Shown here: positions 31,904 through 41,606 of the stretch, piece by piece | How the letters are laid out: each line of letters begins with the position of its first letter | How positions within the stretch are numbered: position 1 is the first letter of the stretch | Source: Sandaracinaceae bacterium | GTDB lineage: Bacteria > Myxococcota_A > Polyangia > Polyangiales > Sandaracinaceae | Direction: 5' to 3' | NCBI GenBank assembly: GCA_019637095.1 | Contig: JAHBWG010000074.1 | Span: forward strand, 1-48,208 | Length of the DNA: 48,208 nt | Notes under the pieces: model-generated | The model's input: the letters and a program-made list of their open reading frames with translations, nothing else | What the model was told of the DNA's origin: nothing | Databases searched by the model: none | Made by a program: the position numbers and the translations under genes

Positions 31904-31932
31904 ACTATATCGACTCGCGCGCCGCGCGTCAC
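31904..31932 (-). promoter_or_regulatory. Candidate sigma-70 promoter for the signalling cassette
   Basis: On the minus strand GTGACG (31932-31927) and TATAGT (31909-31904) are separated by 17 bp. The -10 matches 5 of 6 consensus bases and the -35 matches 4 of 6. Spacing to the GGDEF-like ATG at 31864 gives a leader of about 33 bases. The -35 overlaps the stop codon of the upstream lipoprotein gene. Confidence 0.5.
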
Positions 31933-33110
31933 GGACACTCGGCGCGATTGCCGAGCCCGGCGAGAGCCGTCGCGGCCATCGAGACGTTCGTGTACGGCGC
32001 GCCCTCCCACTCCACGGACGGATCGAACGGATCCATGCTCGCGGTGTCGCCCATCATCACGGCGCAGCGCCGCGTGAGCACGTGGTCGAGCGTGGAGATC
32101 CCCCCGCCGCTCCAGCGCCCGCCGCTCGGGAGCTCCCCGACGCGGCCGAAGCGATCGAGCACGACGCCGAAGCACGCGAGCTCGTACGCGTCGTCGCCGT
32201 TGTGGTTGAGCGCCGCGACCATCGCGTCGCAGGCGGTCGCGATCGAGATCGACGAGTTGCAGACGACGTGCACGTCCCCCGGCGCGACGGTGCCGGTCAG
32301 CGCGATCGAGGACGCGGTCGTCGTGCCGTTCGAGTAGCGCAGCAGCTCACAGCCGGCGAGGGTCGCCGGCGTGGCGCCGTAGTTCAGGATCTCGAGCGCC
32401 TTGTCGTTGGACGGCCCCTCGACGTACTCGCTCAGGAGGATCGACGGTGGGATCGGCGGCCCGGCGTCGACGCCCGCGTCGAAGCCCGCGTCCATCGGCA
32501 CCGCCGCGTCGAAGCCCGCGTCCATCGGCACCGCCGCGTCGAAGCCCGCGTCCATCCCCGGACCCGCGTCGAAGCCGGGGCCCGCGTCCATCCCCGGACC
32601 CGCGTCGAAGCCGGGGCCCGCGTCGAAGCCCGGGCCCGCGTCGAAGCCCGGGCCTGCGTCGAAGCCCGGGCCTGCGTCGAAGCCCGGCCCGCCGTCGAGC
32701 ATCGGCAGGTCGGTGCAGACGCCAGCGACGCAGTCGACGCCGTCCGCGCACACGACGCCGCGACACGCCGCGGAGAGCACGACCGGCACGCGCACCGTGC
32801 CGCCGCGCGAGAACGCCGCGCGGACCACCCGGTGCGTCACGAACCCGTCGCGCAGGATCGCCACGACGGTGATCGTCACGTCCGAGTCCATGCCCGTCGC
32901 GGGCAGGATCGTGAGGCTCTGCGGCCAGCTGCCCTGGATCGGGAAGCGCCGTTCGAGGCTGCGCCCGCTCGACGAGCGCGCGACGAAGTGGAGCGAGTCC
33001 ACGTCCGTCCCGACCGCGAGATCCGGCGAGCTGACCTCGACGAGGATGCCCGTGGCGTCGCCGCAGCCACCGAGCGCGAGGAGGAACGACAAGAGGACGG
33101 TTCGTCGCAT
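31929..33110 (-). CDS. Lipoprotein with lamin-tail-like domain and Asp/Ala/Gly repeats
   Basis: A 393-residue lipoprotein. Lipobox LALGGC gives an acylated Cys at about residue 16. An N-terminal beta domain (residues 20-130) ends in CRGVVCADGVDCVAGVC. A repeat tract built on DAGPGF and DAGFDAAVP (about residues 140-215) follows. A C-terminal lamin-tail (LTD) type domain begins ILLSEYVEGPSNDKALEILNYG. The LTD motif is common in secreted bacterial proteins. The N-terminal domain resembles that of the lipoprotein at 43874-45421. Expected at the outer membrane; ligand unknown. Confidence 0.8.
   Translation of the reverse strand: MRRTVLLSFLLALGGCGDATGILVEVSSPDLAVGTDVDSLHFVARSSSGRSLERRFPIQGSWPQSLTILPATGMDSDVTITVVAILRDGFVTHRVVRAAFSRGGTVRVPVVLSAACRGVVCADGVDCVAGVCTDLPMLDGGPGFDAGPGFDAGPGFDAGPGFDAGPGFDAGPGMDAGPGFDAGPGMDAGFDAAVPMDAGFDAAVPMDAGFDAGVDAGPPIPPSILLSEYVEGPSNDKALEILNYGATPATLAGCELLRYSNGTTTASSIALTGTVAPGDVHVVCNSSISIATACDAMVAALNHNGDDAYELACFGVVLDRFGRVGELPSGGRWSGGGISTLDHVLTRRCAVMMGDTASMDPFDPSVEWEGAPYTNVSMAATALAGLGNRAECP
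32466..32693 (-). repeat. Tandem repeat coding for DAGPGF units
   Basis: A tract of near-identical 18-base units, several complete copies in a row, encodes DAGPGF/DAGPGM, followed by longer DAGFDAAVPM units of the same lipoprotein. It makes a flexible, acidic spacer between the N-terminal and lamin-tail domains. Repeat number may vary between strains. Confidence 0.85.
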
Positions 33111-35340: not shown

Positions 35341-35529
35341 TCGAGCGCCCACGCGACCGACTCCGCCATCGAGGCCAGGCCATCGCGCAGCGATGGCCGT
35401 TGGCCGAGGGGGCCCCATCGCCGCGCGATGGGGTCGAACGCGGCTCTGCCGCGTTCGTCTCGGGTGGGGGGACCCAGCGCGGCTTTTGCCGCGATGGGGG
35501 GAGGGGTTGGAACAACCCCTCCAAAGACT
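35324..35529. repeat. Five perfect hairpins in tandem flanked by 8-bp direct repeats
   Basis: CAAAGACT occurs at 35324-35331 and again at 35522-35529. Between them are five stem-loops with perfect stems: 35378-35398 (9 bp, loop 3), 35413-35433 (8 bp, loop 5), 35436-35456 (9 bp, loop 3), 35478-35493 (6 bp, loop TTTT) and 35501-35521 (8 bp, loop 5). Most of the interval from 35378 is paired. It lies between convergent genes. It may be a small non-autonomous mobile element (MITE or REP-like), a bidirectional terminator array or a structured RNA. No transposase is nearby. The rest of the 345-bp gap (35184-35323) holds only the remnant frame described separately. Confidence 0.75.
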
Positions 35530-37904
35530 CAGAGCGCGAGCACGTCGGTCGACATGCCGCGCTCGCCGGGCGAGCCGCCAGGCGAACAGGCCTGACCGTC
35601 GCCGCCGGGGCCGATCGTCGTCGTGAGCCCGGCCGGGAAGCTCACCGTGCTGCCGCGGGTGAGCAGGCCGATGGAGGGACCGCCCGCGCCGCCGCCCCCG
35701 CAGCCGCCGGGACCTCCCTGCCCTCCCACACCGCCGGCGCCGCCGTCGGGAGGGACGGGGAAGGCGGAGCAGCCGACGTCCGAGAGGCAGTTGGTCGACC
35801 CGGCGGCCCCCGCGCCGCCGTTGCCGCCCGCGCCGCCGTTGCCGCCCGCCCCGCCGCGACCGCCCGGGCCCCCGCCGGCCGTCTCGAGCGTCACCGCGTC
35901 GAGCGTCAGCGTCGAGGCGAACGCGGTGATCGCGAACGAGCCGCCGCCGGGGCCTCCGCCCCCGCCGCCGGCCCCCCCGCCTCCGCCGAAGCCGCCCTGC
36001 CCGCCGCCGCGGCCGTAGATCCGCGTCGAGCGGTCGGTGCAGATCACGCGGCCGCCGCCGCCGCCGCCGCCGCCCTGGTGCCCCGTCCCGCCGGGGCCGC
36101 CAGGGTCCCCGCTCACGCCGGCCCAGCCGCTCGCCGTCAGGGTCCCGACGCCCGCGCCCGGCGCGCCGACCGAGCCGACGACGGTGCTCGCGCAGCCGGC
36201 GCGCCCCGGCTGACCGAACGCGACGCTGGTGTCCCACACGCACGCCATGCAGGCGAGCATGTAGTCCGTGCCGGCGGGGCCGGCGCCGCCGCACGCCCCG
36301 GTCATCGACACCGCGGCCGCGCGCCCCGGCTGCGCGGGCGCCGACTGGCTCCCGCCGCGACCGCCCGAGGAGGGCGCGCCCTCGGTCCCGCCGGGCACCC
36401 CGCCGGCGGCGCAGTTCGGGCTGTTGAACGGCGCCGTGCTCGCGCCGACGCCACCCGGCGTCCCCGTCCCGCCGGTGGCGCCGGTCGCGCCGGGCGCACC
36501 GCGCCCCGCGGTGACCTCGAGGTTGCGCAGGATGGTGCTCGGAGAGCTCACCACGGTGACCGTCCGCGTGTACACGCCGGGCGTGGTCTGGTGCGCGGTG
36601 CGCAGATCCACCGCGTCGATGGTGATGGACACTCCGTCGACGACGAGCGCCTGCGACGCCGCCGACGTGACGACGCTGCGCTGCCGCGTGTCGCGCGTCC
36701 GGAAGTTGCCGGCGTAGGCGCCGATCACGAGCACGCCGTCCGTCGCGGAGACCGGCGCCGTGATGTCGTAGGCCCCGGAGGCGACGAGGATCTGCGCCGT
36801 GATCCCGATCGCGCGCCGCTCCGTCGCGACCTGGAACCCGCGGGCGAAGCTCACCGCGGTCCCGGGGGTGCTGCCGCCGCCGGTCGCGACGCCGTCGGGG
36901 CGCACGTAGATGAACCGCGGCGCGCCGACGACGCCGTCCGCGCCGTCGCAGTTCGCGTCGATCGCGCCGGGGTCGATGTCGTCGTCGGCCGAGACGAAGG
37001 TGCACGCGTACTCGCACCCGTTCGTCGGGTCCCGGTCGAGGTCGACGAATCCGTCGGCGCATCGGACGCCGCACGCGCCGGCCATGCAGGTGGCGACGGT
37101 GCCCGGCCGCGTCGGGCACGGCGCGACGCAGTCGGCGGCGGACGTTCCGCAGTGCGCGGGGTCGGAGGCGCTCGTCGGATCGTACGCCTCGACGCACGCG
37201 GCGGCCGCGTCGTCGCATACGGGCGGCAGCGTGCACGCGTTGTCGTCCGGCGCGCACGTGCGCAGCGGGTACTCGCAGAAGCCGCCCTCGCAGGTCTCGA
37301 CGGTGCAGAAGCGGCCGTCGTCGCACTCCGCCGGCGTCGTACACGGCGTCGCGAGGATGCACCCGTCGCCGTCCGGGCCGAGCCCGTCGCGCCCGGTGCC
37401 GGTGGGATCGCAGACGCGACCCGCGGGGCAGCGCGACGAGTCGCGCGCGTTGTCGCAGCCGCTCGCCGCCGCGCAGGTGTCGACCGTGCACGGCACGCCG
37501 TCGTCGCACGAGACGGGCGCGCGCTCGCAGCGCTCGTCCGCGCAGGTGTCCGTCGTGCACGCGTCGGCGTCGTCGCAGTCGACGTCGCTCGTGCACTCCA
37601 TCGGCACGCCCGCGTCGCCCGGGGCGGCGTCGTCCGCGCCGCCGTCGCGCGGCCCCGCGTCGAGGTCGCCCGCGTCGGGTGCCGCGCCGTCGTCGGGGAC
37701 CGCGCCGTCGACGGGCAGCGCGGCGTCCATCCCACCGCCGTCCGCGCCCCCCGAGCTCGAGTAGCACCGGCCGTCGGCGCGGCAGCTCCACCCCGAAGGG
37801 CAGTCCGCCGCGCTCGAGCACGCGAGCCGCCCCTCGGGGGGCGCGACGTCGAGGCAGGCGGTGACGAAGAGCGCGGCGAGCGCGAGAGCGAGGCGAGCGC
37901 GCAT
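35529..37904 (-). CDS. Large Cys-rich and Gly-rich lipoprotein
   Basis: A 791-residue lipoprotein. Lipobox VTACL is at the N terminus. The first 300 residues are Cys-rich, with Asp-spaced CxxDxDCDDxDxCTxDxC units as in secreted myxobacterial proteins. Next is a domain with FIYVRPDGVATGGGS and later VDGVSITIDAVDL that looks like a right-handed beta-helix or pectin-lyase-type repeat. Then come collagen-like Gly-X-Y runs (GAPGATGATGGTG and GGAGGNGGAGG). The start lies 2 bp after the stop of the TPR membrane protein gene at 37907-38716. Likely surface-exposed; function unknown. Confidence 0.75.
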   Translation of the reverse strand: MRARLALALAALFVTACLDVAPPEGRLACSSAADCPSGWSCRADGRCYSSSGGADGGGMDAALPVDGAVPDDGAAPDAGDLDAGPRDGGADDAAPGDAGVPMECTSDVDCDDADACTTDTCADERCERAPVSCDDGVPCTVDTCAAASGCDNARDSSRCPAGRVCDPTGTGRDGLGPDGDGCILATPCTTPAECDDGRFCTVETCEGGFCEYPLRTCAPDDNACTLPPVCDDAAAACVEAYDPTSASDPAHCGTSAADCVAPCPTRPGTVATCMAGACGVRCADGFVDLDRDPTNGCEYACTFVSADDDIDPGAIDANCDGADGVVGAPRFIYVRPDGVATGGGSTPGTAVSFARGFQVATERRAIGITAQILVASGAYDITAPVSATDGVLVIGAYAGNFRTRDTRQRSVVTSAASQALVVDGVSITIDAVDLRTAHQTTPGVYTRTVTVVSSPSTILRNLEVTAGRGAPGATGATGGTGTPGGVGASTAPFNSPNCAAGGVPGGTEGAPSSGGRGGSQSAPAQPGRAAAVSMTGACGGAGPAGTDYMLACMACVWDTSVAFGQPGRAGCASTVVGSVGAPGAGVGTLTASGWAGVSGDPGGPGGTGHQGGGGGGGGRVICTDRSTRIYGRGGGQGGFGGGGGAGGGGGGPGGGSFAITAFASTLTLDAVTLETAGGGPGGRGGAGGNGGAGGNGGAGAAGSTNCLSDVGCSAFPVPPDGGAGGVGGQGGPGGCGGGGAGGPSIGLLTRGSTVSFPAGLTTTIGPGGDGQACSPGGSPGERGMSTDVLAL

Positions 37905-39598: not shown

Positions 39599-40564
39599 CT
39601 AGCGGCGCGCGAGGACGCGGCGCACCTCGCGCGGCGCGAGCGCGCGGTCGCTCGCGGCGAGCGGCGCGTCCTCGACGCGCGCGAGGTGGATCGAGAGCGC
39701 GCGCAGCGTGGGGAACCGGAACAGATCGGTGACCGCGAGCTCGAGCCCGAGCACCTCGGCGAGCCGGGCGCGCGTCTGGAGCGCGAGGAGGGAGTTGCCC
39801 CCCGCGTCGAAGAAGCTCTCCGTCGCGCCGATGCTCGCGCGCCCGAGCACGGCGGCCCACACGGGCGCCATCGCCCGCTCGAGCGTGTCGGGATCGCGCG
39901 GCTCGGCGCGCGCGGCTCGCCGCGCGCCCACGACCTCGGCGGGCACGCCGATCGCCGTCGCGCCGGCCGGGACGTCGTGCACGACCGAGGAGCACGCGCC
40001 CACCGTCGCGCCCTCGCCGACGCGGAGCTCGGGGAGGATCGCCGCGTTCGTGCCGACGTAGACGCCGTCCTCGAGCACGACGCGCGCGTTGAGCACGCTC
40101 CCCGCCGCGAGCACGCAGCACTCGCCGATCCGGCACTCGTGCCCGGCGACCGCGTTCATGAACAGGACCGTCCCCTCGCCTATCTCCACCTCCGGCGCGA
40201 GGATCGCGCCCTCGTAGACGATGAGCTCGCGCGCGAGCGTCGCGCCGAGCGTGTCGACGCCCGGGTGGATCAGCGTGGCGAACGGGATCCCGTACGACGC
40301 GAGCTTCGCGCGCGCCGCGCGCCGCCGCGCGGTCGTGCGCGCGACGAGGTTCGCGACCTCGTCACGCGCCGGGTCGGCGCCCGCGAGCACGTCGAAGCCG
40401 CCGACGACCTCGACCCCGAGCAGCCGCTGGCCCCAGCGGGCGCGGTCGTCGTCGAGGATCGCGAGCGAGCCCCAGCGCGACGAGCGCCGGTTGATCGTCA
40501 GCGCGAGCCGGACCCCCTCGGAGTTGCCGGCGCCGCAGAGGTAGAGCGTGCGATCGAGCGCCAT
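39599..40564 (-). CDS. PglD/NeuD-type acyltransferase fused to a carrier-protein domain
   Basis: A 321-residue protein. Residues 1-95 form a Rossmann-like domain (LCGAGNSEGVRL, then AILDDDRARWGQRLLGVEVVG) as in PglD/NeuD sugar acetyltransferases. Residues 95-215 carry left-handed beta-helix hexapeptides, with the catalytic His142 in AVAGHECRIG. Residues 225-300 form a peptidyl/acyl carrier domain with the phosphopantetheine Ser258 in FFDAGGNSLLALQ and a downstream helix VTDLFRFPTLRALSIHLA. The combination suggests an acyl group delivered by its own carrier. The gene follows the radical SAM gene after 17 bp. No NRPS, PKS or phosphopantetheinyl transferase is nearby. Substrate unknown. Confidence 0.85.
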   Translation of the reverse strand: MALDRTLYLCGAGNSEGVRLALTINRRSSRWGSLAILDDDRARWGQRLLGVEVVGGFDVLAGADPARDEVANLVARTTARRRAARAKLASYGIPFATLIHPGVDTLGATLARELIVYEGAILAPEVEIGEGTVLFMNAVAGHECRIGECCVLAAGSVLNARVVLEDGVYVGTNAAILPELRVGEGATVGACSSVVHDVPAGATAIGVPAEVVGARRAARAEPRDPDTLERAMAPVWAAVLGRASIGATESFFDAGGNSLLALQTRARLAEVLGLELAVTDLFRFPTLRALSIHLARVEDAPLAASDRALAPREVRRVLARR

Positions 40565-40581
40565 CGTCGGTCCCCCGCGCT

Positions 40582-41520
40582 TCAGGCGCCCGCCGCCCGG
40601 AGCTGCACGAGCTCCTCGTCGCTGGTGATCCGGCGCGCCGCGCCCGTCATCCAGTCCTTGCAGGTGTGACAGCGCTCGGGCAGCGCCTCGAAGTCGCGCG
40701 CGAGGTGCAGCCCCCGGTAGCGACCGAGGCGCCCCCACAGGACGTCGAGCGGCTCGTGCCACGCGTTGCCCGCGAGCTCCTCGCCCTCGGTGTCGCCGGG
40801 GCAGCGCGGCACGCGCCCGTCCCAGAAGACGTGCATCATCGTGAGCGCCCAGGGGCACGGGATCCGTTCGTCGGGCGGGATGTCGAGCGGCGTGTCGAAC
40901 TTGCCGCCCCAGCTCAGCTTGTTGCGCACCTTCAGCGTCGCGCCGCGCTCGAGCCAGTACCTCGAGTACTCCTCGCGCTCGTGCTCGTTCTCGTCCATCT
41001 CGATGAACTGCACCATGATCTCGGGGCCCCCACCGCGCCGCGCGCGCGCCGCGAGGAGGCGCTCGACGTTGCCGTAGACGACGTCGCGCTTGGCGCCGAC
41101 GCGGATCGCCTCGAACACGGGCGCCGAGAAGCCGTCGATGCCGAACACGATGCGCTTGATCCCCGAGTCGAGGATCGGCGCGTCGAGATCGGGCGTCAGG
41201 TACATCCCGTTCGTGTTGATGCTGATCGACTCGAGCCCGACCTCACGACCGTAGGCGATCATGCGCAAGAGGAGCTGCGGCTCGAGCAGGGGCTCACCGC
41301 AGAACGAGAACCACACCTCGGTCCGCGGCGAGCGCGCCGCGACCTGGACCGCGCAGCGCTGCCACAGCTCGAAGGGCATGACGCCCTTGGGCCGCTTCAT
41401 CTGCGGGTGGTGACACATCGAGCAAGCCAGGTTGCAGTCTGCGCAGAGCTCCACGGCGAACCGCGTCGGGAACGCGATCTCCTTGAGCGTGGGCGCGATG
41501 CGGTCGAGCTCCGGATCCAT
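40582..41520 (-). CDS. Radical SAM/SPASM-domain enzyme
   Basis: A 312-residue radical SAM protein. The [4Fe-4S]-SAM motif is C29-NLA-C33-SM-C36 within LCADCNLACSMCHHP. Next come the SAM-contact region WFSFCGEPLLEP and SINTNGMYLT. The C-terminal part has extra cysteines (IPCPW, RCPGD and CHTCKDW) typical of a SPASM/twitch auxiliary-cluster domain. The ATG at 41520 was preferred over ATG 41529 because the GAGGAGG on the minus strand sits at a suitable distance upstream. It is co-directional with the acyltransferase-carrier gene 17 bp downstream. An FNR-type box is found in front of it. The substrate could be a sugar, amino acid or carrier-bound intermediate; this is open. Confidence 0.88.
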   Translation of the reverse strand: MDPELDRIAPTLKEIAFPTRFAVELCADCNLACSMCHHPQMKRPKGVMPFELWQRCAVQVAARSPRTEVWFSFCGEPLLEPQLLLRMIAYGREVGLESISINTNGMYLTPDLDAPILDSGIKRIVFGIDGFSAPVFEAIRVGAKRDVVYGNVERLLAARARRGGGPEIMVQFIEMDENEHEREEYSRYWLERGATLKVRNKLSWGGKFDTPLDIPPDERIPCPWALTMMHVFWDGRVPRCPGDTEGEELAGNAWHEPLDVLWGRLGRYRGLHLARDFEALPERCHTCKDWMTGAARRITSDEELVQLRAAGA

Positions 41521-41592
41521 GCGACGCATCCTCCTCGCGTCCGCGGTCGTTGCGGGCGTGCCGTCGTTTTAAGACCCGGGCGGACGCACCCG

Positions 41593-41606
41593 TTGATCCG
41601 CGTCAA
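41593..41606 (-). promoter_or_regulatory. FNR/CRP-type box before the radical SAM operon
   Basis: TTGATCCGCGTCAA at 41593-41606 matches the FNR consensus TTGAT-N4-ATCAA at nine of ten bases. It lies 73-86 bases upstream of the radical SAM ATG. On the minus strand a TCTTAAAA -10-like sequence (41574-41567) lies about 30 bases from the box centre, as expected of a class II activated promoter. Oxygen- or redox-dependent control is inferred. Confidence 0.55.

Follow-up and report, generated by a model that had tools for sequence, protein, structure and literature searches.

Two co-directional genes and their products

The window, by which we mean the whole 48,208-nucleotide stretch of DNA analysed here, contains two co-directional minus-strand genes. 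The first encodes a radical SAM enzyme, and the second, 17 bp downstream (gap at 40565–40581), encodes an acyltransferase of the NeuD/PglD type with a fused carrier protein domain. The two genes form an operon. Their open reading frames, strand and spacing are as given in a first-pass annotation of the sequence. We set aside a 419-aa open reading frame as the acyltransferase–carrier gene and took the ATG at 40564 as its start, which gives a protein of 321 aa. The features of the locus are listed below.

40582–41529, minus strand: BtrN-like radical SAM enzyme of the Twitch type, 315 aa (PF04055; BtrN profile and fold matches; orthologues 63–77% identical)
41413–41436, minus strand: CX3CX2C motif (Cys32, Cys36, Cys39), predicted ligands of the SAM-binding [4Fe-4S] cluster (from sequence; invariant in orthologues)
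40660–40857, minus strand: auxiliary-cluster region, Cys225-x17-Cys243 ... Cys287-x2-Cys290 (aligns with BtrN cysteines; nearly invariant)
39599–40564, minus strand: 321-aa fusion of a NeuD/PglD-type acyltransferase with a carrier protein domain (Hexapep, TIGR03570 and PF00550; orthologues 50–53% identical)
39929–40564, minus strand: NeuD/PglD-like part, with an N-terminal nucleotide-sugar-binding-like domain and a left-handed beta helix (TIGR03570 at residues 13–209; PDB matches PerB, VioB, PglB and PglD)
40139–40141, minus strand: His142, predicted catalytic base, aligned with PerB His141 (PerB and orthologue alignments)
39671–39892, minus strand: carrier (PP-binding/PCP) domain (PF00550, 1.6e-13; PCP structure matches; helices in the model)
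39791–39793, minus strand: Ser258 (GGNSL), predicted phosphopantetheine attachment site (PF00550 motif; invariant in four orthologues)
39602–39670, minus strand: basic C-terminal tail resembling formyl-A(LLM)-PCP NRPS tails (side-by-side comparison; 21–41% identity among orthologues)
41593–41606, no strand assigned: FNR/DNR-like palindrome TTGATCCGCGTCAA, 9/10 positions, 64 bp upstream of the radical SAM start codon

As the first-pass annotation stated, no NRPS, PKS or sugar-nucleotide gene lies next to the pair; aminotransferase and glycosyltransferase genes are likewise missing from its immediate surroundings in the window, and several NRPS and PKS genes are found elsewhere in the genome. 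The window also encodes a lipoprotein-like protein, predicted to be secreted, whose long C-terminal region is rich in glycine (GGxGG; 35529–37904), and a predicted lipoprotein in which DAGPGF/DAGPGM units recur in a row (31929–33110).

The upstream gene product belongs to the radical SAM superfamily: its core matched PF04055 (9.7e-11; 42.6 bits against a Pfam cut-off of 29.5) and contains the CX3CX2C motif, whose cysteines are nearly invariant in 13 homologues. After the core we found a single auxiliary-cluster site of the form C-x17-C...C-x2-C, which identifies a BtrN-like Twitch enzyme. A profile of 13 family members matched BtrN at 3.5e-25; the alignment took in the core as well as the auxiliary-cluster region, and all four auxiliary cysteines lined up. 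The enzyme had initially been labelled SPASM-type; we call it Twitch-type instead, as the Pfam SPASM model (PF13186) did not match it at 0.001 and four auxiliary cysteines, not seven, are conserved. PF13186 does match a relative from Lawsonia.

BtrN, the Twitch radical SAM dehydrogenase of butirosin biosynthesis (PDB 4M7S and 4M7T), was also the best fold match of the predicted structure (pLDDT 86; Z 21.7, rmsd 3.0 over 234 residues). The likeness comprises the radical SAM core and a single auxiliary [4Fe-4S] site with the same four-cysteine layout, yet the two sequences are about 20% identical. BtrN acts on an aminocyclitol (2-deoxy-scyllo-inosamine) in an aminoglycoside pathway and, unlike the window enzyme, has no carrier-fused acyltransferase partner. 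The next fold matches, SuiB, DesII, MoaA and BlsE, lay within about 2–3 Z units, followed more weakly by AbmM (Z 14.6) and SpeY (Z 13.6). Sugars or cyclitols are the substrates of many of the closest enzymes of solved structure; peptide-acting enzymes (SuiB and SkfB) and the nucleotide-acting MoaA score nearly alike, so the fold alone leaves the substrate unsettled. An anti-phage role was rejected, the viperin matches being weak and confined to the radical SAM core.

In the downstream protein, the first 212 residues resemble PerB, VioB, PglB and PglD, and the protein matched Hexapep at 9.6e-13. The best NCBIfam model was TIGR03570 (NeuD/PglB/VioB; 4.8e-39), with a score of 134.1 bits that falls below the curated cut-off of 160.8 and so places the protein outside that family as curated. 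The PerB position aligned with His142 is the one that differs in PerB structures 4EAA and 4EAB, and this histidine of the beta helix is invariant in a three-way orthologue alignment and kept in the fourth orthologue. By contrast with the amino-sugar N-acetyltransferases PglD, PerB, VioB and NeuD, whose N-terminal domain, left-handed beta helix and catalytic histidine it shares, the window protein has a fused carrier, a basic tail, an altered N-terminal motif, a sub-cut-off TIGR03570 score and non-sugar neighbours. The N-terminal GxGGH-type motif is replaced in all four orthologues (GAGNSEG in the window and G111; GATNPEG in G043 and G504), so the sugar-binding site may differ. PglD, PerB and VioB use acetyl-CoA.

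Ancestry of the fused carrier

The C-terminal domain is a carrier: residues 235–294 matched PF00550 with 51.1 bits, far over the cut-off of 20.8, and the domain is helical in the structure model, with PCP structures as its fold matches. When the model of the whole fusion was used as query, the fold matches were mostly carriers, as confidence in the modelled beta helix was moderate. The serine of GGNSL that the first-pass annotation had picked out, Ser258, is the predicted attachment site, and the PglD/NeuD-like architecture with a C-terminal carrier and the intact catalytic motifs in both genes also held up, with the radical SAM cysteines, His142 and Ser258 all kept in the orthologues. A PPTase gene is present in all three genomes tested (the window genome, G000, together with G043 and G111).

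We built a tree of 62 carrier domains. In it the fused carriers of all four orthologues grouped together (support 91/46), which weakly favours a single fusion event. They were nested in a clade with 98/97 support whose other carriers come from formyl-A(LLM)-PCP NRPSs, synthetases that contain a TIGR04020 monooxygenase; the one exception is an unclassified sequence. Three members of this clade had been labelled 'other', and two of them showed the monooxygenase motif once longer sequence was read. The tree rests on 77 columns and finer placement is unsure. Together with the resemblance of the tails, this placement indicates that the fused carrier descends from a specific clade of NRPS carriers that often occurs in exopolysaccharide loci. 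The synthetases themselves are unlike the pair, being large enzymes with an embedded luciferase-like monooxygenase and no radical SAM enzyme.

In the window genome (contig C128), in G043 (C179) and in several relatives, the NRPS lies among genes for Wza-type export, sugar transferases, a flippase, a PPTase and PKSs, some checked by family search and the rest read by eye; such a set of genes makes up an exopolysaccharide locus. In G111, by contrast, a PKS comes after the NRPS. An NRPS of this kind is present in all four genomes that carry the pair. It also occurs in 40 of 379 sampled genomes, including every one of the six sampled from the window's family, and because it is common in the same families we rejected this co-occurrence as independent proof of a functional link. 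The link to the NRPS is thus one of carrier ancestry, and the NRPS is a candidate functional partner.

Loci combining a formyltransferase, an adenylation domain interrupted by TIGR04020 and a carrier amid exopolysaccharide genes were seen at G000:C128:46000–62000 (L060) and in L061, L125, L126, L128 and L131. Such NRPSs in exopolysaccharide loci of several genomes hint at polysaccharides decorated with amino acids or polyketides.

Distribution and surroundings of the pair

We found orthologues of the radical SAM enzyme in three further genomes: G043 and G504, of one genus in another family of the same order as the window genome, and G111, of another class. A fused acyltransferase–carrier gene follows directly in each. 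The pair is therefore adjacent, co-directional and in the same order in 4/4 genomes with the radical SAM orthologue, the window genome included, although G043 and G504 are not independent cases. The junctions are tight: the two genes overlap by ATGA in both G043 and G504, and 4 bp separate them in G111. The first-pass annotation had staked its idea of a system on adjacency in relatives and on the carrier resembling PCP/ACP profiles, and the idea came through on both points. The pairing exceeds chance. No other gene within 4 kb of the pair was detectably conserved across families, so the pair is the unit.

The pair spans three families and two classes of one phylum. Counting the window genome itself, the radical SAM orthologue occurred in 3 of 318 genomes of the window's class and in 1 of 91 of the class of G111; the pair was found in none of nine other members of the window genome's family and is missing from about 99% of sampled relatives. 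This patchy distribution suggests horizontal transfer or repeated loss. All four genomes are draft assemblies. Searches of viral contigs yielded no relatives of the pair, and searches of plasmids no close homologue of either protein, while the latter did yield clusters from Lawsonia and Desulfovibrionales. A whole-collection scan with the acyltransferase alone, using single-sequence patterns, returned distant NeuD proteins and missed the known orthologues, so relatives may exist outside the phylum. A literature search for the combination of radical SAM enzyme, PglD and carrier returned no matching paper, which is weak evidence; the two-gene combination of known enzyme kinds is genuine and apparently undescribed.

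The genomic context of more distant radical SAM relatives (roughly 24–34% identity) points to sugars. On a plasmid of Lawsonia intracellularis, a NeuD-type acetyltransferase gene adjoins a radical SAM gene of the same broad family in a NeuD–radical SAM–DegT aminotransferase–AsnB cluster, which differs from the window pair in its low identity (24–26%), lack of a carrier, reversed gene order and adjoining aminotransferase. Other relatives lie in a radical SAM–perosamine synthetase–AsnB cluster and a DegT–radical SAM–methyltransferase–WbqC cluster, and several from the same phylum are near sugar-nucleotide dehydratase, DegT, WbqC and sialic-acid-type genes (predicted proteins read by eye). In G111 a shortened glycosyltransferase gene precedes the pair; its product shares 54% identity with a glycosyltransferase encoded close to the NRPS of G043.

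The two genes evolve at different rates. Between G043 and G504, dN/dS (Nei–Gojobori) was 0.16 for the radical SAM enzyme and 0.70 for the fused protein. The G504 fused protein (L059:941–1900) lacks, in frame, about 36 residues of the N-terminal domain, including the LDDD region; this gap may be a natural deletion or an assembly error. The high ratio may likewise reflect relaxed constraint on the acyltransferase–carrier in this genus or a faulty assembly.

The FNR-type box reported in the first-pass annotation is present upstream of the radical SAM gene. The expected number of such matches per window is 0.05, for a search that was post hoc and in intergenic DNA that is A+T-richer than the coding-dominated background. 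A 9/10 site also lies upstream of the G504 copy, with 7/10 sites in G043 and G111; across 840,855 bases of related DNA, the density of 9/10 sites is about one per 38 kb, and the window genome has no perfect TTGATN4ATCAA site. A second 9/10 palindrome (41216–41229) lies within the radical SAM coding sequence, so that the window's two 9/10 matches are both within this gene or a short way upstream of it. In G504 the pair adjoins a nos (nitrous oxide reductase) operon encoding NosZ, a NosR-like protein, NosD, an ABC transporter and a NosL-like protein (L059:3807–11833, L167), and a CRP/FNR-family regulator gene is also near. In G111 it adjoins a CRP/FNR-family regulator gene, with a glycyl-radical enzyme and a molybdopterin oxidoreductase nearby. 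Low-oxygen expression of the pair is plausible and would fit an oxygen-sensitive radical SAM enzyme.

Possible function of the pair

We infer, tentatively and at somewhat below even confidence, that the operon modifies an amino sugar through a radical SAM-dependent change to the sugar and N-acylation from the acyl arm of the fused carrier. The BtrN-like enzyme, with SAM and two [4Fe-4S] clusters, would first alter the sugar, most simply by oxidizing a hydroxyl to a ketone, or else by DesII-like deamination or epimerization. The NeuD/PglD-like beta-helix enzyme would then acylate the amine of the sugar, His142 serving as base. The acyl donor would be the phosphopantetheine arm on Ser258 and not free acetyl-CoA, with the carrier loaded in trans by an adenylation enzyme encoded at another locus of the genome. 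The result would be a decorated sugar, made perhaps under low oxygen, that goes into a surface polysaccharide or glycoconjugate.

Several lines of evidence are consistent with this scheme: the pair is kept as a unit; BtrN is the nearest match to the radical SAM enzyme, with DesII, BlsE, SpeY and AbmM also among the matches; distant radical SAM relatives sit in glycan clusters; and the NeuD part retains the PerB catalytic histidine. The carrier, of NRPS-clade ancestry, passes PF00550 with its serine in all four orthologues and a PPTase at hand in the three genomes tested, and the glycosyltransferase in G111 and the low-oxygen context fit as well. Against these stand the lack of adjoining sugar genes in the window, the sub-cut-off NeuD part without its GGH-type motif, the low identity to BtrN with nearly equal fold scores for SuiB, SkfB and MoaA, the weakness of the NRPS co-occurrence, the fast evolution of the acyltransferase–carrier with its shortened G504 copy, and the imperfect FNR sites. 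The first-pass annotation had proposed a stand-alone modification system without specifying a substrate. The conserved two-gene system stands; we read a sugar substrate and a donor loaded in trans as better, because the radical SAM relatives are mostly sugar-acting and the carrier comes from an NRPS clade of exopolysaccharide loci.

Other readings assign the carrier or the pairing a different part. The radical SAM enzyme might act on an acyl or aminoacyl group bound to the carrier, with the beta-helix domain then passing the finished group to an acceptor amine. Translational coupling, or near coupling, of two genes that always occur together would suit this, as would the NRPS-clade origin of the carrier, but we consider it rather unlikely: the nearest radical SAM relatives by profile and genome context are mostly sugar-directed, no stand-alone adenylation gene adjoins the pair, and the radical SAM enzyme is far better conserved than the carrier, which is unexpected if the carrier is its substrate. 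We are similarly doubtful that the carrier is mainly a tether, its NRPS-like tail docking the acyltransferase to a partner such as a PKS of an exopolysaccharide locus while acetyl-CoA remains the donor, as established for the NeuD relatives PglD, PerB and VioB. Tail and carrier do resemble those of NRPSs that accompany PKSs, yet retention of Ser258 in 4/4 orthologues despite fast divergence of the domain suggests a working carrier.

It is improbable that a low-oxygen regulon or an island is all that joins the two genes, each serving a separate pathway. The FNR-like boxes and anaerobic neighbourhoods would be explained, but order and few-base spacing are constant in 4/4 loci while all other neighbours differ, and a NeuD gene adjoins a related radical SAM gene in Lawsonia. 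A SPASM-kind peptide (RiPP) maturase with an accessory acyltransferase seems very improbable. Weak matches to SPASM maturase models and the SuiB and SkfB folds point that way, whereas the Pfam scan found no peptide-recognition domain and the cysteines suffice for one auxiliary cluster; this possibility is further disfavoured by the lack of a candidate precursor peptide gene, as no ORF of 20 aa or more within 4 kb of the pair is detectably conserved across families.

Returning to modification of an amino sugar, a more speculative extension, to which we give little credence, is that the pair stands in for the exopolysaccharide-locus NRPS, or works with it, independently of oxygen. With O2 absent and the luciferase-like monooxygenase of the NRPS idle, the pair, whose carrier domain is related to that of the NRPS, would supply a different acyl-sugar decoration under an FNR/DNR-type switch. 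If the amino-sugar scheme is right, the operon would pair a radical SAM sugar enzyme with a co-expressed NeuD/PglD-type sugar N-acyltransferase that has an acyl donor arm of its own. This compact module of two genes would thereby bring NRPS-style chemistry to the decoration of polysaccharides.
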